Positions 6,303 to 49,542 of a DNA stretch of 64,000 bases are shown here, piece by piece. Each line of letters opens with the position of its first letter. The first letter of the stretch is position 1. Under the pieces are notes generated by a model. It saw only the letters and a program-made list of their open reading frames with translations, was not told the origin of the DNA and searched no databases. A program made the translations under genes and the position numbers. The stretch covers positions 186,001 to 250,000 of the forward strand of contig NZ_VCMV01000003.1 in NCBI RefSeq assembly GCF_008757455.1, written 5' to 3'. This DNA comes from Microvirga brassicacearum. GTDB lineage: Bacteria > Pseudomonadota > Alphaproteobacteria > Rhizobiales > Beijerinckiaceae.

Positions 6303-7895
6303 ATGACCAAACCCCGCGTTCTCATTTCCGACGCCCTCTCGCCCGCCGCCGTGCAGATTTTCAAGGATCGCGGCATCGACGTGGATTTCCAGCCCGACCT
6401 CGGCAAGGACAAGGATAAGCTTGCCGCCGTCATCGGCGATTATGACGGCCTGGCGATCCGCTCCGCCACCAAGGTGACGGCCAAGATCCTGGAACAGGCG
6501 AAGAACCTGAAGGTGATCGGCCGCGCCGGCATCGGGGTCGACAATGTCGAAATCCCGGCCGCCACCGCCAAGGGCGTGATCGTCATGAACACGCCGTTCG
6601 GCAATTCCATCACCACCGCTGAACACGCCATCGCGATGATGTTCGCGCTCGCCCGCCAGATCCCGCAGGCCGACACGTCGACCCAGGCCGGCAAGTGGGA
6701 GAAGAACCGCTTCATGGGCGTCGAACTCACCGCCAAGACACTTGGGGTGATCGGTTGCGGCAACATCGGGTCGATCGTGGCTGAACGCGGCATCGGCCTG
6801 CGTATGAAGGTCATCGCCTACGATCCGTTCCTCTCACCCGAGCGCGCTATCGAGATCGGAGTCGAGAAGGTGGAGTTGGAGGAACTGCTCCGCCGTGCCG
6901 ACATCATCACGCTGCACGTGCCGATGACCGAGAAGACAAAAAATATTCTGTCGGCCGAGAACATCGCCAAGACCAAGAAGGGCGTGCGCATCATCAATTG
7001 CGCGCGCGGCGGATTGGTCGACGAGACGGCGTTGCGGGCAGCGCTCGATTCCGGCCACGTCGCGGGCGCGGCCTTCGATGTGTTCATCGAGGAGCCGGCG
7101 ACCAGCAACCCGCTGTTTGGACACCCCAACGTGGTCTGCACCCCTCATCTGGGCGCCGCCACCACGGAGGCGCAGGAGAACGTGGCGTTGCAGGTTGCCG
7201 AGCAGATGTCGGATTACCTGCTGCAGGGCGCGATCCAGAACGCCGTCAACTTCCCGTCCATCTCGGCCGAGGAAGCACCGCGTCTCAAGCCTTTCGTGGC
7301 ATTGGCCGAGAAGCTCGGCTCGTTCCTGGGCCAGCTCACCGAAGCGCCGATCAAGGGCATCCGCATCGAATATGAAGGCGCGGTCGCGGACATGAACACC
7401 CGCGCGCTGACGTCGGCTGCGGTGACCGGCGTGCTGCGTCCGTTCCTGCAGGACATCAACATGGTGTCCGCGCCGGTCGTGGCGCGCGAGCGCGGCATTA
7501 CGATCGAAGAGGTGAAGCGCGAGAACGCCGTGCGCGATTACGAAAGCTTCGTCCGCATCGTCGTCCAGGCCGAAGACATGGCGCGCCATGCGGGCGGCAC
7601 GGTGTTCCAGGATGGCAAGCCGCGGGTGATCGAGATCCGCGACATCGCGGTGGACGCGGAATTTGCGCCGCACATGATATACGTGCGTAACGACGACAAG
7701 CCGGGTTTCATCGGACGCTTCGGCACGTTGCTTGGGGAGTCCGGCGTCAATGTCGCCACCTTCGCGCTCGGCCGTGACCGCGCCGGCGGCGATGCGATCT
7801 GCTTCGTGTCGGTCGATCAGCCCGTGACGGATGATCTGCTGCGCAAGATCGAGGCGATTCCGCAGGTCAAGCGCGCGCGCTCGGTGCGGTTCTAA
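6303..7895 (+). CDS. serA: D-3-phosphoglycerate dehydrogenase
   Basis: The 530-residue long-form SerA oxidises 3-phosphoglycerate with NAD+, the first step of serine synthesis. An N-terminal D-2-hydroxyacid dehydrogenase catalytic domain surrounds a Rossmann NAD domain (GVIGCGNIGSIVAERG). The catalytic motifs INCARGGLVDE and CTPHLGAATTEAQENVA follow. An ASB intervening domain and a C-terminal ACT domain (HMIYVRNDDKPGFIGRFG) follow, the usual site of serine feedback. The ATG at 6303 gives the conserved MTKPRVLISDAL start; the open frame continues upstream into the repeat and is ignored. Confidence 0.96.
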   Translation: MTKPRVLISDALSPAAVQIFKDRGIDVDFQPDLGKDKDKLAAVIGDYDGLAIRSATKVTAKILEQAKNLKVIGRAGIGVDNVEIPAATAKGVIVMNTPFGNSITTAEHAIAMMFALARQIPQADTSTQAGKWEKNRFMGVELTAKTLGVIGCGNIGSIVAERGIGLRMKVIAYDPFLSPERAIEIGVEKVELEELLRRADIITLHVPMTEKTKNILSAENIAKTKKGVRIINCARGGLVDETALRAALDSGHVAGAAFDVFIEEPATSNPLFGHPNVVCTPHLGAATTEAQENVALQVAEQMSDYLLQGAIQNAVNFPSISAEEAPRLKPFVALAEKLGSFLGQLTEAPIKGIRIEYEGAVADMNTRALTSAAVTGVLRPFLQDINMVSAPVVARERGITIEEVKRENAVRDYESFVRIVVQAEDMARHAGGTVFQDGKPRVIEIRDIAVDAEFAPHMIYVRNDDKPGFIGRFGTLLGESGVNVATFALGRDRAGGDAICFVSVDQPVTDDLLRKIEAIPQVKRARSVRF

Positions 7896-7914
7896 CGACC
7901 TTCCTCCGGCGGGA

Positions 7915-8820
7915 TCAGGCGCGTCTTTCAGCGAGCCAGATTCCGCCGAGAACGAGGGCCAGCCCAACCGCGTGATAAAGCGCAAAGGGCTCGCCCAGAA
8001 TCAGAACGGCCAGCAACGCGCCGAAGACCGGCACCAGATTGACGAAAAGGCCGGCGCGGGCCGGGCCGATCAGCTCCACGCCGCGGATGAAGAAGACCTG
8101 CGCCACCAGCGACGGCAGCAGGCCGATATAGAGCATGATGACCCATCCCGCCGGCGTCGGCCATTGCACGCTCCCGCTCGCCATCTCGATGGCGAGCAGC
8201 GGAAGCGATGTCATGAACGCAACCATCGCGAGGGACGTGAAGAAGACGAGACCCGATACCGGTGGTTTGCGTCTCAGGCCCAGCGTGTAGGCGGCGTAGA
8301 ACACGCAGGCGATCAGCGTGAAGACGTCGCCGATGTTGAGCGCCAGCGTTCGCAGAATCTCCAGATCGCCCTTCACCGAAACCAGGACCACGCCGGCGAT
8401 GGTCATGAGCATCCCGAAAACCTGCACCCGCGCCACGCGCACATGCAGGAACAGGACCGAAGCCAGCAGCACCAATACGGGGATCGCCCCCTGAAAAAGC
8501 GTCAGGTTGACGGCGGTGGTGTAGTGCGCGGCCGTGTAGAACAACGCGTTGAAAGCCGTAAAGCCGAAGATGCCGGACAGGACGATGATGCGCCACCCGG
8601 TCTTCAGGATCGACCATTCGGCGACCATCTGGCGCCCGACGATGGGCAGCAGCACGATGAGGACCATCACCCATCGCAGGCACGTAAGCGCCATCGGCGA
8701 GATCTCACCAACGGCAAGCCGACCTGCGACGGCGTTGCCGCCCCACATGAGCATCGCCAGGGCGAGCAGCAGGAAGGCTTGCCCGAAGAGGCCGTTCCAG
8801 AGCGAATTCACGAATCTCAT
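7915..8820 (-). CDS. EamA/DMT-family permease
   Basis: The 301-residue protein has ten predicted hydrophobic segments and two EamA repeats, the build of drug/metabolite transporter exporters. The start WGGNAVAGRLAVGEISPMAL and the mid segment GFTAFNALFYTAAHYTTAVN are typical of this family. The substrate is unknown; family members export amino acids, purines or drugs. It is convergent with serA, only 19 bases apart. Confidence 0.88.
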   Translation of the reverse strand: MRFVNSLWNGLFGQAFLLLALAMLMWGGNAVAGRLAVGEISPMALTCLRWVMVLIVLLPIVGRQMVAEWSILKTGWRIIVLSGIFGFTAFNALFYTAAHYTTAVNLTLFQGAIPVLVLLASVLFLHVRVARVQVFGMLMTIAGVVLVSVKGDLEILRTLALNIGDVFTLIACVFYAAYTLGLRRKPPVSGLVFFTSLAMVAFMTSLPLLAIEMASGSVQWPTPAGWVIMLYIGLLPSLVAQVFFIRGVELIGPARAGLFVNLVPVFGALLAVLILGEPFALYHAVGLALVLGGIWLAERRA

Positions 8821-15512: not shown

Positions 15513-15588
15513 GCTCCCTTCGTCTAGCGGTCCAGGACGTCGCCCTCTCACGGCGAAAACAGGGGTTCGATTCCCCTAGGGAGCGCCA
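15513..15588 (+). tRNA. tRNA-Glu (anticodon CUC)
   Basis: The 76-base gene folds as a full cloverleaf: acceptor stem GCTCCCT (15513-15519) with AGGGAGC (15578-15584), anticodon loop CTCTCAC with CTC, T-arm AGGGG TTCGATT CCCCT, discriminator G and an encoded CCA. The prophage begins at its 3' end, and an intact tRNA has been kept. Confidence 0.95.
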
Positions 15589-17774: not shown

Positions 17775-20090
17775 CTAGAACTTCGTGAGATCGTCGGTTT
17801 CGGGGACGGTGCGAGAAGCCTCGAACGGCTTGTCTTCATCGACAGGCGCCGCGTTGCCGCCACCGATCGGTGGCTGGCCTTGCTCCGTCACACCGCGAAG
17901 GTGGAAGTTCTGGACCGGCTTGCCGGTCATCCAGAGATAGACCTTGTTCGAACCGATGATCTTCCAGCGGATCAGCGCCTTGGTCGCCCTCGACCACCTG
18001 GCCTTCAGTCGGTTCTCGACCGCGACCTCGTCTCCGGTTTCGGTGGCCGCGAACTTCTCCATGAAGGCGTCGCGCACGTCCCTCACGTTCGCCACGAGGT
18101 TCACTCGTCCCGGTACTTCGACACCGGCCGGGGGCATGATGCCGCGCTTCTCGATCGTCTCGGCAAGCGCCTGCAGGAACTCCAACTCGGTCGGATTGAC
18201 CTTGAAGCCCCTGGCCTTTTCTCTCTTGCCCGAGAGATCGCCGGTCTGCTTGACCACGACGCATGACGTGACCGGATCGCCATCGCCATCGCTGCCGACC
18301 GTCACTTGTTTCAACCGGAACTTCTCAGTCTTGCCGCCCGGTCCAGCCTTCATTTTCCGGATGACGAATGCGTTGGGAGTGTCCTCCGTGGCGCTTGCCA
18401 CCTCGATTTCAAGATCGGCGGCGCCATGAAGGGACTCGTGTCCGCGCGGACCGCGCCCGCCTTCCTTCCCGCCGTGATGGACGCCGATCACCGCCACCTT
18501 CAAGCTTTCCTGAAGGAGCCCGCAGTTCTTGACGAACGTGGACATCACGGCGCTGTCATTCTCATTGCCGCCGGCGAGCGATCGCGCCACCGTGTCGAGG
18601 ACAACGAGTTCGGTAGGGACGCCACATAGGGCGAGCATTGAGGCGGAGATCGCTTTCACATCGGACGCGAGTTTCTGCGTATCGGCATCGCTGCTTCGCA
18701 TGTCCACCGTCGTCGGCAGAAACACGAACGGGATGACGGCATCAGGCGGAACGTTGTTGTTCTCCCGCCATGCGTGAAGCCGGATCTCGAAATCGTCGCT
18801 GCCTTCGGCCACGACATAGACCACTCCGAACACCCGGCCTTTGTATCCGAACCACTCGGGCCGATCGCGGTTGAGGGCCTTCCCCGCGGCCATGGTCAAG
18901 CACAGGTCCGAAAGGAGAAAGCTTTTCCCGCATCCAGGCGGCCCGTAGACAATCCCGAAAACGGACGCGAGCAGGAGGTTCTTGAGCAGCCAATTCCGAA
19001 CAGGCTTCTTGCCGCTGATCTGGTGAAACCAAACGGCCTTGAAGTTGAGCTTCAGCGTCTCGGGGTCGAGGTTCGGGTTGGAGCCCTCCGCCTTCGGGCC
19101 GGTGTAGGCGTTCCACGCGACCGCACTCGAGTCGACGAGTTCGTACAGCGCGTCCGGCGTTCCTCCTGCCTCGATCCAATCGAACCCGTCGCCCTTTTCC
19201 GGCAGTCCCGGCAACTCGAGGATTCGGACGCTTCGAGCGACTGCCGACGTTTCAAACGCGACGCGCTTCGCGTGGTCCTGTCCGACGAATACCGGCGCGC
19301 CGTCCTCGTAAAACTTGAGAGCGCCATCTTTCCGTTTCGCCTGCCGGTCATTATCCGGCAGGACGACCAGGTCCACGTCGTCAAAGTAGTTGGTGAGTTC
19401 GTCCCACCACTTGCCGGCGCCCATGGGGTTGCACGTCGCGGGCACGCCTACGGACCGAAGCCGGTCGACGACCTTCTCGCCCTCCACGAAAAAGATTGTC
19501 ACGCCATCGGCGACATCTGCGAGATACTCGGGAAGGCGGTAAGGGACGATCCGAACGCCGTCCAGATTCCAGACCCACCCACGCTTGATCGTCTCCGGAT
19601 CGTCGTCGTCGCGCGGCTTCCGCCGTTGCGCGTAGCTCTTTTTCCGCTTGCCGTCCTCCTCCCACTCGAACTTCACGACTTGGTAGATCTCGACGTTGTT
19701 CTCGTCGACATAGGGGAAGGTGGCGGTGATCTTTTTCTCGGTGACGACCTTCGGCGCACGAGCCGCCGGCTTCGGCTTGCTCTCCTTTGGCATGTCGTTT
19801 TTCTTGACCGCCGGGGAGGTCGCATCCCGACGCTCCGGAACGGGGAACTTGTGTTCCTCGAGCCACTCGAAAATCTCCTTGCCCTGAAGGCCGGCTTCCT
19901 CCTGCAGGAACTTGATCGGGCCTCCGCCGACATCATTGCCATGAACAAAATAGCGGCCGATCTTCGGATTAACGGTCCGGCCTCCGCCATACCGGATCTC
20001 CGACGCGTTGCCCTCGCCCTTGCGCGGCGGGCCCCACACTACCGCGGCGATGTCGGCCATCTTGGATTCGAGTTCGTCGAGGCCGCTCAT
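17775..20090 (-). CDS. Phage primase-helicase (Toprim plus RepA-like ATPase)
   Basis: The 771-residue protein combines a Toprim domain with a RecA-fold helicase. The Toprim glutamate lies in FFVEGEKVVDRL near residue 200 and the acidic pair in VVLPDNDRQAK near 245. The Walker A motif GPPGCGKS is near 380, Walker B is ELVVLDTVARSLAGG, and a GVHHGGKEGGRGPRGHESL segment follows, as in RepA-type AAA_25 helicases. The N-terminus resembles a primase zinc-finger region but lacks the cysteines. It probably starts replication of the phage genome. Confidence 0.82.
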   Translation of the reverse strand: MSGLDELESKMADIAAVVWGPPRKGEGNASEIRYGGGRTVNPKIGRYFVHGNDVGGGPIKFLQEEAGLQGKEIFEWLEEHKFPVPERRDATSPAVKKNDMPKESKPKPAARAPKVVTEKKITATFPYVDENNVEIYQVVKFEWEEDGKRKKSYAQRRKPRDDDDPETIKRGWVWNLDGVRIVPYRLPEYLADVADGVTIFFVEGEKVVDRLRSVGVPATCNPMGAGKWWDELTNYFDDVDLVVLPDNDRQAKRKDGALKFYEDGAPVFVGQDHAKRVAFETSAVARSVRILELPGLPEKGDGFDWIEAGGTPDALYELVDSSAVAWNAYTGPKAEGSNPNLDPETLKLNFKAVWFHQISGKKPVRNWLLKNLLLASVFGIVYGPPGCGKSFLLSDLCLTMAAGKALNRDRPEWFGYKGRVFGVVYVVAEGSDDFEIRLHAWRENNNVPPDAVIPFVFLPTTVDMRSSDADTQKLASDVKAISASMLALCGVPTELVVLDTVARSLAGGNENDSAVMSTFVKNCGLLQESLKVAVIGVHHGGKEGGRGPRGHESLHGAADLEIEVASATEDTPNAFVIRKMKAGPGGKTEKFRLKQVTVGSDGDGDPVTSCVVVKQTGDLSGKREKARGFKVNPTELEFLQALAETIEKRGIMPPAGVEVPGRVNLVANVRDVRDAFMEKFAATETGDEVAVENRLKARWSRATKALIRWKIIGSNKVYLWMTGKPVQNFHLRGVTEQGQPPIGGGNAAPVDEDKPFEASRTVPETDDLTKF

Positions 20091-44399: not shown

Positions 44400-44520
44400 T
44401 AGAAATATGCGTATAGGAATACAATTTATTCCAGAATATTCACCAGCTTGCCCGACCTGACTGGCTCTGTTCCCGACTGGCACCGCTCCGCCAGGGCGGA
44501 CGAAAAGAGCGTTCGTCTAT

Positions 44521-44765
44521 CTGCCTTGCATGTCGTGTTGCATGGCATGGGCTAGAGCATGGGCATGGGCTAGAGGCCTGCCTTGCATGGGCATGGTGAT
44601 AGGGCAGGGGATGGCGTGAGGGCATGGACCTGTCATGGCTCGGCATGGGCAGGAGGAAGGGCAGGCCTCGGCATGGGCGGACGCATCGGCATGGCTCGGC
44701 ATGGATCGAAGGTAGGGCAAGCCCCGCTCGGCATGGTCTATGGGTGAGGGCATGGCATGGGAATA
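44521..44765. repeat. CATGG-saturated low-complexity region
   Basis: CATGG occurs 15 times in about 240 bases, several times as CTCGGCATGG, with irregular spacing. Open frames across it (for example a histidine- and proline-rich one on the minus strand) are repeat artefacts. From 44400 to 45030 I see no gene. The role is unknown; origin, packaging or protein-binding functions are possible. Confidence 0.6.
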
Positions 44766-45030
44766 GATATCACTATGCACAATGGGCTCGATTAGAGAGG
44801 CAAGGACAGGGAGTGAGGGCCTGGGGACGGCCCAGGGGCGTGGGCAAGGGGAGATCGGGCTCAGTGAGCACGGCACGCGATCGGACGGGCTGGAAATCAA
44901 AGGGACCGTATGAGAAGGGCAGGCCGGCGAGGCGCCCCGTCGCCCGCCGATATTGCCGGATTTGTGCGCGCAAAGGGGGATCGTCGTCTTAAGGGTCTGA
45001 AAACGTTGTGAAAACGGGGTTGACCGCCCC

Positions 45031-45429
45031 TTGCGTTTGTGGGCGGGAATAGGCATATTGTTATTGCGATTCAAACACTTGCCGGGGGCGGCATTGCCAC
45101 AAATCACACGAGTTCGACGCGTCGGGCGGGCCCGACCGCTGTTCCACATCATCCAGACGAAGGGCCGGGTCGCTCGTTGCGACCTCCTGGCTTGGGCTCG
45201 AGAGAACTTGCTCGTCGAGGAATCCTGGTACGGAGGTCACCTCCTGCGGATTTCACTACGCAGAATGCGTGCTCAAGGGATCATCGGGTTTGACGAGCAA
45301 TTCGTCTGGGCAACCGGGATCCCGAAGCCACGCCGACCGCTCCGCGGATGCGTCGCAGAACAGGCCCGAAAGCACCGAGAGCGCCAAAACCTGTCAATCC
45401 CTGCAGGCCAAGAAAGCGCATTTAATTAG
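45031..45429 (+). CDS. Possible winged-helix DNA-binding protein
   Basis: The frame encodes up to 132 residues; the start is uncertain (TTG codons at 45031 and later). The segment LFHIIQTKGRVARCDLLAWA followed by RENLLVEESWYGGHLLRISL and RRMRAQGIIGFDEQFVWATG looks like a winged helix. It lies alone between the CATGG region and the 21-bp array, the place where a late-gene activator or antiterminator might be expected. Confidence 0.45.
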   Translation: MRLWAGIGILLLRFKHLPGAALPQITRVRRVGRARPLFHIIQTKGRVARCDLLAWARENLLVEESWYGGHLLRISLRRMRAQGIIGFDEQFVWATGIPKPRRPLRGCVAEQARKHRERQNLSIPAGQESAFN

Positions 45430-45703
45430 GACGAATCCGGCACGGGGGGATAAACCGCTGAGATCGCAAGCGGAATGCCCGAAAAAGCGTGCTCGCAGCT
45501 ACGGGTGGATAAAGTTCAGGCTATTGCGCTTTGAGGACTTTCTCGGCAATTCTCGCGTCCATCAGCCTGTAAGTGACTCTTAACAAAGATCGTCTGGGCC
45601 GGCGCCAAGCCGAGCCCACAGCACTCACTTACCGAGATCATTACGATCGTGCTTATTTAAGAGAGAGACCGGCATCTCTTTCATTCTGTTTTCGGCGCTT
45701 CGC

Positions 45704-45859
45704 GTCACGTTCCGTCCAGGCTTCGGCCTCGGGCGGATTTTTTATGTCCCGGTTCTGGCGGAGATCGTCACCAATTCGGTCGGTCTCGTCACGTTTCGCG
45801 CTTGTCGCGTCACGAGCCACGGCGCGATGTCACGTTTTGAGACGACGACGTCACTTTTT
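45704..45859. repeat. GTCAC direct-repeat array with 21-bp period
   Basis: GTCAC or GTCCC begins at 45704, 45746, 45767, 45788, 45809, 45829 and 45850, steps of 21 (or 42, 20) bases; the unit due at 45725 is degenerate and coincides with an AGGC-TTCG-GCCT hairpin followed by T6. The best units read GTCACGTTT. All copies thus face the same side of the helix. The rest of 45430-45703 shows no gene. Position between early blocks and the late operon suggests terminase (cosB-like) or activator binding. Confidence 0.65.
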
Positions 45860-45936
45860 CGCAGGGTAGAGCAGTCCGGAAGCTCGCGTGGCTCATAACC
45901 ATGAGGTCGGCGGTTCAAATCCGCCCCCTGCAACCA
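45860..45936 (+). tRNA. Initiator-type tRNA-fMet (anticodon CAU), phage-borne
   Basis: The 77-base cloverleaf has acceptor CGCAGGG with CCCTGCA, leaving the C1 x A72 mismatch that marks formylated initiators. The D-arm is GAGC...GCTC, anticodon loop CTCATAA, T-arm GGCGG TTCAAAT CCGCC, and CCA is encoded. The anticodon stem next to the loop is TGG/CCA, two G-C pairs plus T-A rather than three G-C pairs. It begins immediately after the last GTCAC repeat. Confidence 0.92.
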
Positions 45937-46266
45937 TTCTTCACTAGGGGCGAGGCCCGCAACTGCCGTGGCAACGGTGCGGATAACCGGACCCCGAACA
46001 TCAAGGCGCGCGACCCCTGGGCCACGAAGGGGCGAGCAGATGGCCGAATCTTGCCAGGATCGGCCGGAGCCATGACGGCAACTAGCCCGCTGTAAGTCGC
46101 TCGGGCGAAAGAGCGACGGGCGCCCTGCAAGGCGCCACAACCTATTCGCCCACTTGGGCACAACAAACGTCGCGGTGGCGCTCCGCGCCTGCCGAGCGAT
46201 CGCGATCAAGCCCGCCCCCGGCATTTTCGAGTCGCTCGACCGCGCCGGCCACATGAAAGACTCCGG
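45937..46266. other. Interval without a recognisable gene
   Basis: This 330-base stretch between the tRNA and the first late gene has a plus-strand frame without an ATG (open from about 46073 to 46300) and a minus-strand frame that runs antisense through the tRNA. Neither has a ribosome site or protein-like composition. A cos site or late promoter could be here, but no motif is clear. Confidence 0.4.
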
Positions 46267-46539
46267 ATGTCCGACCTCCAACCGACGCGTCGCCGGCTGA
46301 CCATCCTGTCGGCGCTCGCGACCGGTTGGTTGCCCTGGGGCGTGGAGTGGAAGCCGTATCTGTCGTTGTGCGGGAATGAGTACATCCTGTGTTGCGGTCA
46401 CGTCATGGGACGGAGCGAAGCGCAAGTGTTCGTTGATCAAGGCCTCTTGGAGGCCGGCGACCCGGACCGCTTCGGTCGGCCGACTCTTGTCATTACCGAG
46501 CGCGGCAAGGGCTGGCTTGGCTCCAACTGGGGCTCGTGA
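46267..46539 (+). CDS. Phage protein, unknown, first gene of the late operon
   Basis: The 90-residue protein contains RRLTILSALATGWLPWGVEW and ends LVITERGKGWLGSNWGS, a short winged-helix-like arrangement. It overlaps the gpZ-like gene by one base (TGATG). Function unknown. Confidence 0.6.
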   Translation: MSDLQPTRRRLTILSALATGWLPWGVEWKPYLSLCGNEYILCCGHVMGRSEAQVFVDQGLLEAGDPDRFGRPTLVITERGKGWLGSNWGS

Positions 46540-47102
46540 TGTCTGGAATTCGCGTCTCGGTCGACAAGAGCCGCGTTACCGACCTCAAAACACTGATCAA
46601 ACGCCTTGAGGGCCCAGAGATCCGCTCTGCCGCGGCTCGCGGCCTCAATGAGCACGTTCGACTGCAGGAACGGCAGGCCGTGCGCCTGCTCTCCGCACAA
46701 ACGAAGATCCCTGCCGGACGCGTCGCGGCGGTGACCAAATCCGTGAAGGCGTCCGCCTCCGGAGGATCTTCGATGGAAGCATCAGTCGACGTCCGCGACG
46801 CTTCAATTCCTCTCGGCCAATTCACCTATCGCTCATGGTCACGCGGCGATGCCGGCGCTTCGGCCGGGGATTGGAACGGGAAGACGTACAAGGGCTCGTT
46901 CACCATCGCGAAGTACGGCGGCGCCATCTTCGCGCGTCGCCCAGGAGCGAAGAAGTGGCCTGTCATCCGGCTCTGGGGCCCGTTGCTCCCGAGCGAACTC
47001 CGGCGCGCTGACATGCCGACATTGCCTGCCGCACAACGGCTGGCCGACACCGACCTGGAAAGGCGGGTGCTCCGGCACCTTGTGAACGTTCTGGGCGCAT
47101 AA
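46539..47102 (+). CDS. Minor tail protein Z-like
   Basis: The 187-residue protein has a helical start (RGLNEHVRLQERQAVRLLSA), then IPAGRVAAVTKSVKASASGG and a beta-rich part with the VDVRDASIPLGQFTYR motif and GAKKWPVIRLWGPLLPSEL. This matches the order of segments in lambda gpZ, which completes the tail terminus. Its position before the terminase genes is unusual; in lambda Z follows the head genes. Confidence 0.68.
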   Translation: MSGIRVSVDKSRVTDLKTLIKRLEGPEIRSAAARGLNEHVRLQERQAVRLLSAQTKIPAGRVAAVTKSVKASASGGSSMEASVDVRDASIPLGQFTYRSWSRGDAGASAGDWNGKTYKGSFTIAKYGGAIFARRPGAKKWPVIRLWGPLLPSELRRADMPTLPAAQRLADTDLERRVLRHLVNVLGA

Positions 47103-47120: not shown

Positions 47121-47714
47121 ATGCCGCGGCGAGCCGCAAAGAAGTCCGCGAATCCGACGAAGGACGCAAAAAGGAAGCGTTTGGACGGCATCATGGCGGA
47201 TTTTCCGCGTGATGTGAGCGCCAACGAACTCGCTGTTTTGTGGGGAATTGCCTCGCGAAATGTCCAAAGGCTCGCGACGGACGGGATCATCCCGCGATCG
47301 AGCGTTCGTGGCCGGTTTCCCCTGAAGGAATCGACTGTCGCTTACCTCCACGACCTCCGCGAGAAGGCGGCCGGTCGTGCAGCGGGCGAAGGCGGCATGA
47401 CTTTGGCTGCACAACGGTCGCGATTGACCGATCTGCAGGCCCAAGAACAGGAATTGAAGGTCCAAAAGCTCCGCGGCGACGTGATCTCACGCGACGAAGC
47501 GACAGAGGGTTGGACGAAAATCGCACGAGCAGCCAAGGCAGCGTTTCTTGCGCTACCGAGCAAGATCCGGTTCGCGATTCCGCATCTCACCGCGCATGAC
47601 GCGGTCGTTCTCGGCCGGCTCTGCCGTGAATCTCTCGAGGACGTCGCAAACGAACTTGAGGGCGATGATATCCCAGGCGTCGGCTCCGAAAACGGGCTGA
47701 CCGATGAGCCGTAA
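47121..47714 (+). CDS. Terminase small subunit (Nu1-like)
   Basis: The 197-residue protein has an N-terminal winged HTH (SANELAVLWGIASRNVQRLA, TDGIIPRSSVRGRFPL) for cos binding and a coiled-coil middle (SRLTDLQAQEQELKVQKLRG). A C-terminal part for the large subunit follows (LSKIRFAIPHL-like). This is the layout of lambda Nu1. AGGAAG precedes the ATG. It overlaps the large subunit gene by 11 bases. Confidence 0.85.
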   Translation: MPRRAAKKSANPTKDAKRKRLDGIMADFPRDVSANELAVLWGIASRNVQRLATDGIIPRSSVRGRFPLKESTVAYLHDLREKAAGRAAGEGGMTLAAQRSRLTDLQAQEQELKVQKLRGDVISRDEATEGWTKIARAAKAAFLALPSKIRFAIPHLTAHDAVVLGRLCRESLEDVANELEGDDIPGVGSENGLTDEP

Positions 47715-49542
47715 TGCTCTGGGCCAGGCTCTCAGGGATGTCGGAAGGGCTTTTCGGCCACCGCCGGTGCTCTCCTATTCGGATTGGTCCGAAAAATATA
47801 TTCGACTGCCGTCGAGTTCGGCGATCTCGGGCCGTTACAAGCTCTGGAAGTATCAACGGCGGATCCTCGAGGCGATCGGCGATCCATTAATCGAACGGGT
47901 GACCGTCCGAAAGCCGACGCGTATCGGCTATACGCGCCTCCTTTGCGCGGCGCTCGGCGCGGACATGGCGAATGACCCTTGTTCGGTCATTTTGCTTCTG
48001 CCGACCGATGACGACGCGCGCGGCATTATGGTCGACGAGGTGGATCCGACGTTTCAGGAATCGCCGGCGATCTCGACGCTCATGCGGACCGGCCGTTACG
48101 ACGGCAAGAATACGTTGACGACCAGGTCGCTTCTCGGTGGCGGGTCGCTAAAGGCTCTCTCGGCTCGTGCGCCCCGCAACCTTCGCCGCCACACCGCTCG
48201 CAAGCTGTATTGCGACGAGGTCGACGGCATGGAGGTCACCAAGGAAGGTGACCCGATTGCACTCGCCGAGAAGCGGACTGAATCGTTCGCCGACCGCAAG
48301 ATCGTAAAGGGCTCGACGCCGACTGATGTCACGACGTCGATCATCTCTCGTGATTATGACGAGAGTGACAGGCAGATCTTCAAGGTGCCCTGTCCGCACT
48401 GTAACGAGACATTCGAACTGCTCTGGGAGCACATCAGCTTCCCGCATGACAGTCCTGCCGAGGCAGTGGCTATCTGTCCGTTGTGCGGTTGCGTGATTGA
48501 GGAACGCTTCAAGCCAGCGATGGTCGAGGCAGGCGACTTCGAGGCCCAGGCGCCCGACGTTAAGGGGCACGCCGGGTTCCAGTTGAACGCGCTCGTCTCT
48601 CTGCAGCCGAACGCGTCTTGGGGGCAGCTTGCCGCCGAATACCTGAAGGCGAAGCGCGGTGGTCCGTCCCTGATGCAGGGGTTTTGGAACACCGTTCTCG
48701 GCCTGCCGTGGAACACGACCGTCGACAACACCGACGAGCACGAACTGCTCGGCCGTGTCGAGAGCTTCGGTCTCTCTTGGGACCAGGTCTCGGCGGAGTG
48801 GCGCCAGGACATCCCGAGGGACGTCCTGTTCATCACTTGCGGCGTCGACGTGCAGCCGGACCGTCTTGAAATGGTCTTCATCGGGTGGTCGCGCCAGCAG
48901 CGGTTTATCCTCGGTCATCACGTCATCGTCGGCGCAACGAATGTCTCGACGACCTGGGACGAGTTGGACTCGGTCCTGCTTACGAGGTGGGATCATCCGC
49001 TCGGCAACAAAATCGGAATTGAGGCCGCCGCCATCGACTCCGGCGACGGCAACCGAACTTCCTACGTCTATGATTTTGCCGGTCCGCGATCGCATCGCCG
49101 GATCTACGCGATCAAAGGCAAGGAAGGACCGCTCCCCGCATTCAAATTCACCACTTCCCGTCGCGTTCGTCGCGCCGGCGCCCGTCTCGCCATAGTCGGT
49201 GTTGAGGGCATTAAGACCGACATCATGACCTCGCTTTCAATCCCGCAAGACGGGCTGCAGGCGATCCGGTTCTCGGATGATCTGGACGAGGAATGGTTCG
49301 TCCAGTTCACGTCCGAGCGTCGCAAGGTCGAGTACCGCAAAGGCCGCAAGGTCGAGACCTTCGTTCGCATCGGATATCGGGCTGCGGAGGCCCTGGACGC
49401 CACCGTTTACGGGCTGGCGGTTCGGGCGACTTGCGTTTTTCACTTCGATCAACGTGAGGCGGACTTGACCAAGACCGAAGAAGCCAAACCGCCTCGGATG
49501 CAGGCTTTCCGCGACAAAGTGAAAAGGTTGCATAGCCGATGA
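47704..49542 (+). CDS. Terminase large subunit (lambda gpA type)
   Basis: The 612-residue packaging motor has the gpA-type Walker A VRKPTRIGYTRLL near residue 70, Walker B ARKLYCDEVDGME, and a zinc-ribbon-like insert (CPHCNETFELLW ... ICPLCGCVIEE). The C-terminal nuclease domain has acidic residues in CGVDVQPDRLE and AAIDSGDGNRTS. It cuts concatemers at cos and pumps DNA. It overlaps the portal gene by four bases. Confidence 0.93.
   Translation: MSRNALGQALRDVGRAFRPPPVLSYSDWSEKYIRLPSSSAISGRYKLWKYQRRILEAIGDPLIERVTVRKPTRIGYTRLLCAALGADMANDPCSVILLLPTDDDARGIMVDEVDPTFQESPAISTLMRTGRYDGKNTLTTRSLLGGGSLKALSARAPRNLRRHTARKLYCDEVDGMEVTKEGDPIALAEKRTESFADRKIVKGSTPTDVTTSIISRDYDESDRQIFKVPCPHCNETFELLWEHISFPHDSPAEAVAICPLCGCVIEERFKPAMVEAGDFEAQAPDVKGHAGFQLNALVSLQPNASWGQLAAEYLKAKRGGPSLMQGFWNTVLGLPWNTTVDNTDEHELLGRVESFGLSWDQVSAEWRQDIPRDVLFITCGVDVQPDRLEMVFIGWSRQQRFILGHHVIVGATNVSTTWDELDSVLLTRWDHPLGNKIGIEAAAIDSGDGNRTSYVYDFAGPRSHRRIYAIKGKEGPLPAFKFTTSRRVRRAGARLAIVGVEGIKTDIMTSLSIPQDGLQAIRFSDDLDEEWFVQFTSERRKVEYRKGRKVETFVRIGYRAAEALDATVYGLAVRATCVFHFDQREADLTKTEEAKPPRMQAFRDKVKRLHSR

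Follow-up and report, generated by a model that had tools for sequence, protein, structure and literature searches.

What kind of site is formed by a run of short GTCAC repeats that lies between the early and late genes of a prophage of Microvirga brassicacearum? The repeats were analyzed in the window, the 64,000-nucleotide stretch of contig NZ_VCMV01000003.1, which holds a prophage; the copy of this phage in IMG/VR starts at approximately 15.66 kb, beside a tRNA-Glu gene (placed by arithmetic), and runs beyond the end of the window. The early genes encode an integrase, a DUF6362 protein, an AAA_25 helicase, RecT-like and HerA-like proteins, and a polymerase III beta clamp, while the late genes 3' of the array encode a Neck1-like protein, the small (TerS) and GpA-type large (TerL) terminase subunits, the portal, the protease, and the capsid. 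The first-pass annotation, made from the letters alone, had likewise placed the array between the early blocks and the terminase genes (Table 1).

A phased GTCAC array conserved in related phages

Direct reading of the sequence confirmed the seven annotated GTCAC or GTCCC units. All seven are on one strand, with unit-to-unit steps of 42, 21, 21, 21, 20, and 21 bp. The element is a conserved array of direct GTCAC units that lie on one face of the helix within a non-coding gap, and it has the form of iterons, i.e., direct repeats of one word in helical phase.

The first-pass annotation had allowed that such phasing might be common in shuffled sequence, which was not the case. When dinucleotide shuffles of the region from 45400 to 45960 were searched for any 5-mer at any period of 8 to 40 bp, with a tolerance of 1 bp, none of 1,000 shuffles reached the five units of the GTCAC chain and 8 reached four. 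Across the window, a chain of at least five units was present in 4 of 227 overlapping 560-bp stretches, two of which were the GTCAC array and the other two a GCATG low-complexity patch near 44.6 kb. The array was the sole match within its own genome. Genome counts weighed against the rarity of shorter runs, since GTCAC triples were found in 9 of 101 genomes compared with 3 of 101 for the reversed control, and four GTCAC units in 3 of 397 genomes compared with 2 of 397 for the control. Triples alone are not very rare, and the weight rests on the length of the array and on its place in relatives.

Relatives were gathered by TerL from IMG/VR and from genomes, host names being known for named records only. 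Three other distinct phages, with TerL identities of 56 to 57%, carry a GTCAC triple with 20- to 22-bp steps at 1.7 to 1.9 kb upstream of TerL, namely, metagenome contig L004 and two Ancylobacter prophages (L031/L055/G224 and L045/L054). In an alignment of the four intergenic regions, three units are invariant and exactly 21 + 21 bp apart, while the spacers differ. All four regions contain the triple, which was produced by none of 20,000 base shuffles of each. In L004 three further units follow at +14, +42, and +21, the 14-bp step being off phase. The array site in all four phages lies between a gene for a small basic protein and the first late gene. The 21-base spacing, proposed earlier as the feature to check across related prophages, is thus kept in three relatives at the homologous place. 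Because the phasing is conserved with variable spacers in these relatives, the comparison supports the first-pass suggestion of a binding array, and we predict that the GTCAC array is a conserved binding array for a DNA-binding protein, which is probably oligomerizing.

The immediate surroundings of the array are less constant. It had been annotated as ending exactly at the tRNA; it does end near that gene, but a 5-bp gap makes "exactly" a slight overstatement. Nor is this a general feature, as L004 and the Ancylobacter phages carry a conserved 66-amino-acid gene in place of the tRNA, which among the four is found solely in the window phage and its IMG/VR copy. The tRNA beside the array is incidental. 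By eye it has a C1-A72 mismatch, which we take to suggest an initiator tRNA. The empty slot at 45725 overlaps, as first described, a UUCG-type hairpin with T6, and it falls within the loop. The hairpin (45711 to 45737) has an RNA fold of -19.1 kcal/mol (z of -3.4; 1 of 200 shuffles was equally good), and the T6 directly 3' of it occupies 45738 to 45743. A consensus scan did not list this probable terminator (45711 to 45743), and its 3 other sites equal the chance mean of 2.9. A GC-rich hairpin with no U-run, GAGCGCGCCG...GCGCTC, was seen upstream of the array in L004 (1530 to 1554), in L031 (3083 to 3106), and, by eye, in L045.

Table 1. Features of the window at and around the GTCAC array
Feature	Position	Strand	Remark
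AAA_25 helicase gene, replication module	17775..20090	-	Family match
AGGGACCGTA, candidate cos site	44901..44910	+	Conserved upstream of late genes
Small basic protein, candidate winged helix, candidate binder	45031..45429	+	TTG start, true start uncertain
Relatively A+T-rich stretch, possible unwinding element	45480..45729		GC 0.53
Unit 1, GTCAC	45704..45708	+	Outlying, 5' of hairpin
Hairpin with UUCG loop and T6, probable intrinsic terminator	45711..45743	+	Fold z -3.4
Possible weak unit, GTCCA	45714..45718	+	10 bp past unit 1; suggested by helical phase
Unit 2, variant GTCCC	45746..45750	+	Sequence read directly
Unit 3, GTCAC	45767..45771	+	Invariant across three relatives
Unit 4, GTCAC	45788..45792	+	Invariant across three relatives
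Unit 5, GTCAC	45809..45813	+	Invariant across three relatives
Unit 6, GTCAC	45829..45833	+	Sequence read directly
Unit 7, GTCAC	45850..45854	+	Sequence read directly
tRNA-Met(CAT)	45860..45936	+	First gene past array; not found in relatives' loci
Tail completion/Neck1 protein, phrog_27	46536..47102	+	PHROG match
Terminase small subunit, phrog_57	47121..47714	+	PHROG match
Terminase large subunit, GpA family	47704..49542	+	Pfam/PHROG match

A possible replication origin or late-operon control site

With respect to function, we tentatively favor the view that the units are the iterons of a phage replication origin, perhaps the second of two origins like SPP1 oriR. A phage protein, for which our best guess is the small basic, candidate winged-helix protein encoded at 45031, would occupy the units in a head-to-tail row, one every two turns of the helix, and would wrap or bend the DNA at the array. 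The A+T-richer stretch to the left would open, the phage AAA_25 helicase would be loaded at the opened stretch, and the probable terminator that separates units 1 and 2 would keep transcription from upstream out of the site. In our judgment, an origin is favored by the form of the array, the shared helicase and recombination genes, a second triple in one relative, the A+T flank, and the SPP1 precedent.

The genes for the AAA_25 helicase, RecT-like protein, YqaJ, and SSB are common to the window and G224, the one array phage with an early region that was read, and no copies were found in the array-less phages G106, G185, and G003 within the 29 to 39 kb of upstream DNA of each, that of G185 meeting the contig end. 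The replication module of G224 also holds a second triple, of GTCACG at 21 + 21 bp, which lies 27 bp past the AAA_25 helicase gene at the start of the DUF6362 gene (as GTGAC at 15513 to 15559 of L345, + strand; 47526 to 47572 of G532). The stretch beside the array in the window ranks 35th of 1,926 for A+T content among 250-bp windows of the prophage part, and mild GC dips are present in three relatives too.

According to PMC6316719, one SPP1 origin, oriL, is located within gene 38, and the other, oriR, occupies an intergenic segment of the late region. Its gp38-bound origins resemble the present locus in having direct repeats beside an A+T-rich stretch, and in having one intergenic late-region origin and another inside a replication gene, as perhaps in G224. 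They differ in that no gp38/HTH_36-type initiator was found here among the scanned proteins and in that the origin here is putative. Iterons of lambda O-type initiators (HTH_36, phage replisome organizer) are likewise phased direct repeats with variable spacers, but these arrays lie within the initiator gene, whereas the GTCAC array is intergenic.

Arrays of the same form elsewhere were also compared. When IMG/VR was searched for runs of four GTCAC units with a 21-bp-type pitch, at least 120 stretches were found; many were coding repeats with near-identical spacers, and 78 of the 120 had spacers at most 80% alike. From the unlike-spacer loci, 70 of 71 open reading frames were scanned (alignment A3, with L186 left out), and at least 34 of the 70 proteins encoded across such arrays matched a replication-initiation family. 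A separate alignment, A11, used 7 of 8 sequences, the G122 homolog being left out. For the control word CACTG, no initiation family was present among the best 25 of 76 families (23 proteins), and the named ones were mostly tail proteins. Spacer identity below 0.4 was found at 13 of at least 120 GTCAC loci, 0 of 115 CACTG loci, and 1 of at least 128 TGCAC loci. A hidden Markov model (HMM) of the initiators matched anywhere in the stretch for 42 of at least 128 TGCAC, 39 of at least 120 GTCAC, and 2 of 109 CACTG loci, the GTCAC figure being circular because initiators from GTCAC loci were used to build the HMM. Thus, the array's form points to iterons in general, while the GTCAC word itself is not diagnostic, because the second control word, TGCAC, also finds initiator genes. 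Loci with spacer identity of at most 0.8 and no open reading frame of at least 100 codons across the array numbered 7 of 78 for GTCAC and 11 of 34 for CACTG; one of these seven GTCAC arrays (L151) lies, by eye, just past an AAA_25-type helicase-like gene.

A number of observations weigh against an origin. The comparison of early genes involves a single array phage and three array-less ones, and its outcome could reflect overall relatedness. The second triple of G224 is inside a gene, only two of its three units are kept in the closest relative, L490, and the window phage has no such triple beside its helicase gene. The array is approximately 26 kb from that gene, the A+T richness beside it is only mild, and DnaA-box-like sites are absent in three of the four array phages. 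Two of the seven IMG/VR arrays without a long reading frame (L111 and L139) are, by eye, directly before terminase-like genes, and GTCAC as an origin-specific word was dropped on account of the TGCAC result. The neighbor protein in the window and in L031 has no Pfam or PHROG family match, and its homology to HTH_36 initiators was rejected (hhalign probability of 0.2%); no initiator of a known family (HTH_36, O-like, or Phage_rep_org_N) matched it, part of the window proteins having been scanned.

This neighbor protein is central to the chief alternative, which we regard as only slightly less likely than an origin, namely, that the array controls the late operon, with the 45031 protein an Ltr-type regulator binding the GTCAC units as an activator or as a promoter-overlapping repressor. 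The protein has at most 132 codons and an isoelectric point (pI) of 11.7. A gene for a small basic protein precedes the array in each of the four array phages, and the proteins of the relatives (128 to 131 amino acids, pI of 11.1 to 12.0) are 39 to 62% identical to one another; the similarity of the window protein to this family is weak (25 to 28% identity; hhalign probability of 5.7%). The predicted model of the family, from 5 sequences, contains a winged helix, with a mean predicted local distance difference test score (pLDDT) of 73 and of 71 to 91 in the winged-helix blocks. Fold searches pointed to a generic winged helix, with VIA-align Z scores of up to 10.2 and many unrelated families close behind, and Foldseek gave no match at an E value of 0.001 or better. 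No phage initiator was named in the best 50 fold matches per search, which was not counted as contrary evidence. A strict pairing of the protein family with the array was rejected, as family member L336 has no array in the stretch examined; an integrase-like frame follows it, by eye.

In its size, charge, and gene order upstream of the array, the 45031 protein, a candidate winged helix, matches descriptions of Ltr, and in each of the four phages the array adjoins the first late gene, though that gene differs (tRNA or 66-amino-acid gene). The Ltr/Alt regulators of phi13 and TP901-1 likewise combine a small basic protein gene, direct repeats, and a late operon, and a basic protein of approximately 130 amino acids is encoded here directly upstream of the repeats and late genes. 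The locus differs from those systems in that the array covers the likely promoter position, in the lack of a family match, and in the Gram-negative host group. The repeats of phi13 Ltr are placed at about -107 to -42 of the late promoter in PMC13123087.

The last GTCAC unit, in contrast, is 5 bp from the tRNA in the window, and in Ancylobacter phage L031 it is 29 bp from the start codon, so the units would cover the promoter rather than sit upstream as in phi13. This promoter geometry argues against an activator of the classical upstream type, and since the units overlap the promoter room, an origin suits the array better than such an activator would. Also at odds with late control are the probable terminator inside the array, the number of units (up to seven, many for an activator), and two negative results. 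Neither the window protein nor that of L031 matched a known late-regulator family in Pfam or PHROG, and no sigma-70-type promoter was found between 44.5 and 47.2 kb, although promoters of another kind may be in use in hosts of this group. The order in which we place the origin and late control is a matter of judgment.

The cos candidate and the remaining alternatives

That the array is a partition, antitermination, or other site for a phage or host protein is unlikely. Many such systems use direct repeats, but nothing specific favors one here; no partition protein was found among the window proteins scanned (part of the set), and the spacer variation would argue against a structured RNA signal.

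The first-pass annotation had also offered Nu1-like cosB sites, and this claim fared poorly. A second conserved motif, AGGGACCGTA, precedes TerL in 11 distinct phages, counted with duplicates merged (the window, L004, L006, L031, L037, L038, L039, L045, L052, L056, and L076). It was absent from the more distant relatives examined, several of those loci being too short to judge. The four array phages show good conservation of the region 3' of the motif, and the motif's own conservation and place make it a candidate cos site. In a check against virion ends, the best TerL identity was 34.6% among the best 30 of 698 phage records, and the motif was not in the first 120 to 300 bases (left ends) of four virion-end records.

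Like lambda cosB, the array lies upstream of the terminase genes, and its first invariant unit is at a fairly constant distance from the cos candidate (866, 957, 958, and 935 bp in the array phages). The array is present, however, in only 4 of the 11 phages that share AGGGACCGTA; the other 7 have kept TerL, and for two of these, G106 and G185, the presence of TerS was confirmed. Lambda cosB lies within approximately 200 bp of the cut, whereas the array is approximately 0.9 kb from the cos candidate, with a gene in between. Because 7 of the 11 phages keep the motif and TerL but lack the array, we consider the array very unlikely to be a set of cosB-like terminase binding sites; its repeats are neither kept with the terminase genes nor near the candidate cos. 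Weakest of all, and hardly credible, is the idea that the array arose by chance or as a by-product of coding repeats: many 21-bp phage arrays are heptad-coding repeats and triples do occur in other genomes, but five units arose in none of the dinucleotide shuffles and three relatives keep the triple at the same place despite differing spacers.

Other repeats were noted near the cos candidate. The GCATG-rich low-complexity patch, at approximately 44440 to 44780, is on its early side, and a like stretch was seen by eye at 281 to 560 of L004. Four TGTCC units at exactly 11 bp are present approximately 2 kb upstream of TerL in two distinct relatives, L034/L039 and L038/L053, in opposite orientations in the two phages and within approximately 0.6 kb of the cos candidate. 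In L052, which has no GTCAC array, four GCCAG units with steps of 20, 22, and 20 bp lie 1,663 to 1,601 bp upstream of TerL. Given these TGTCC arrays and the GCCAG chain, phased arrays of other words may stand in for the GTCAC array in relatives.

Related sites and biological meaning

The open-access literature surveyed (titles and the starts of abstracts) held no description of a comparable GTCAC array from a phage. Similar repeats were seen in two further settings. In G035, from the same genus, GTCAC occurs six times at a pitch of exactly 21 bp, in five cases as TGTCAC (L023, 14973 to 15158), and the array continues with GTCC units at steps of 10, 11, 33, 11, and 11 bp, between an unnamed 230-amino-acid gene and a minor-tail (tape-measure-like) gene. 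The array-side protein of G035 has no family match, and since the neighborhoods of seven homologs showed no GTCAC cluster and no five phased 5-mers within 1.5 kb, no pairing rule holds for it. In L333, at approximately 7850 to 8000, GGGCAACGTTTTGGGCC repeats with a 21-bp pitch were noted by eye at the start of a 402-amino-acid open reading frame resembling a plasmid replication initiator.

The type of site is unusual but not unprecedented. The array is now separated from AGGGACCGTA, itself a good cos candidate, and it provides a DNA site that is short and testable, has a candidate protein partner, and lies where early and late genes meet in a little-studied group of temperate alphaproteobacterial phages. 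Should the array prove to be an origin, a Gram-negative phage would have an intergenic origin of the oriR kind in its late region. We also considered, as an improbable but consequential extension, that a single undescribed family of tiny basic winged-helix proteins has two roles at this one cos-proximal array, binding it both as an origin and as the operator of the late operon. If so, the replication switch and the expression of late genes would be coupled through one site in this alphaproteobacterial phage group, and in at least one phage the same protein family would bind a second array in the replication module.
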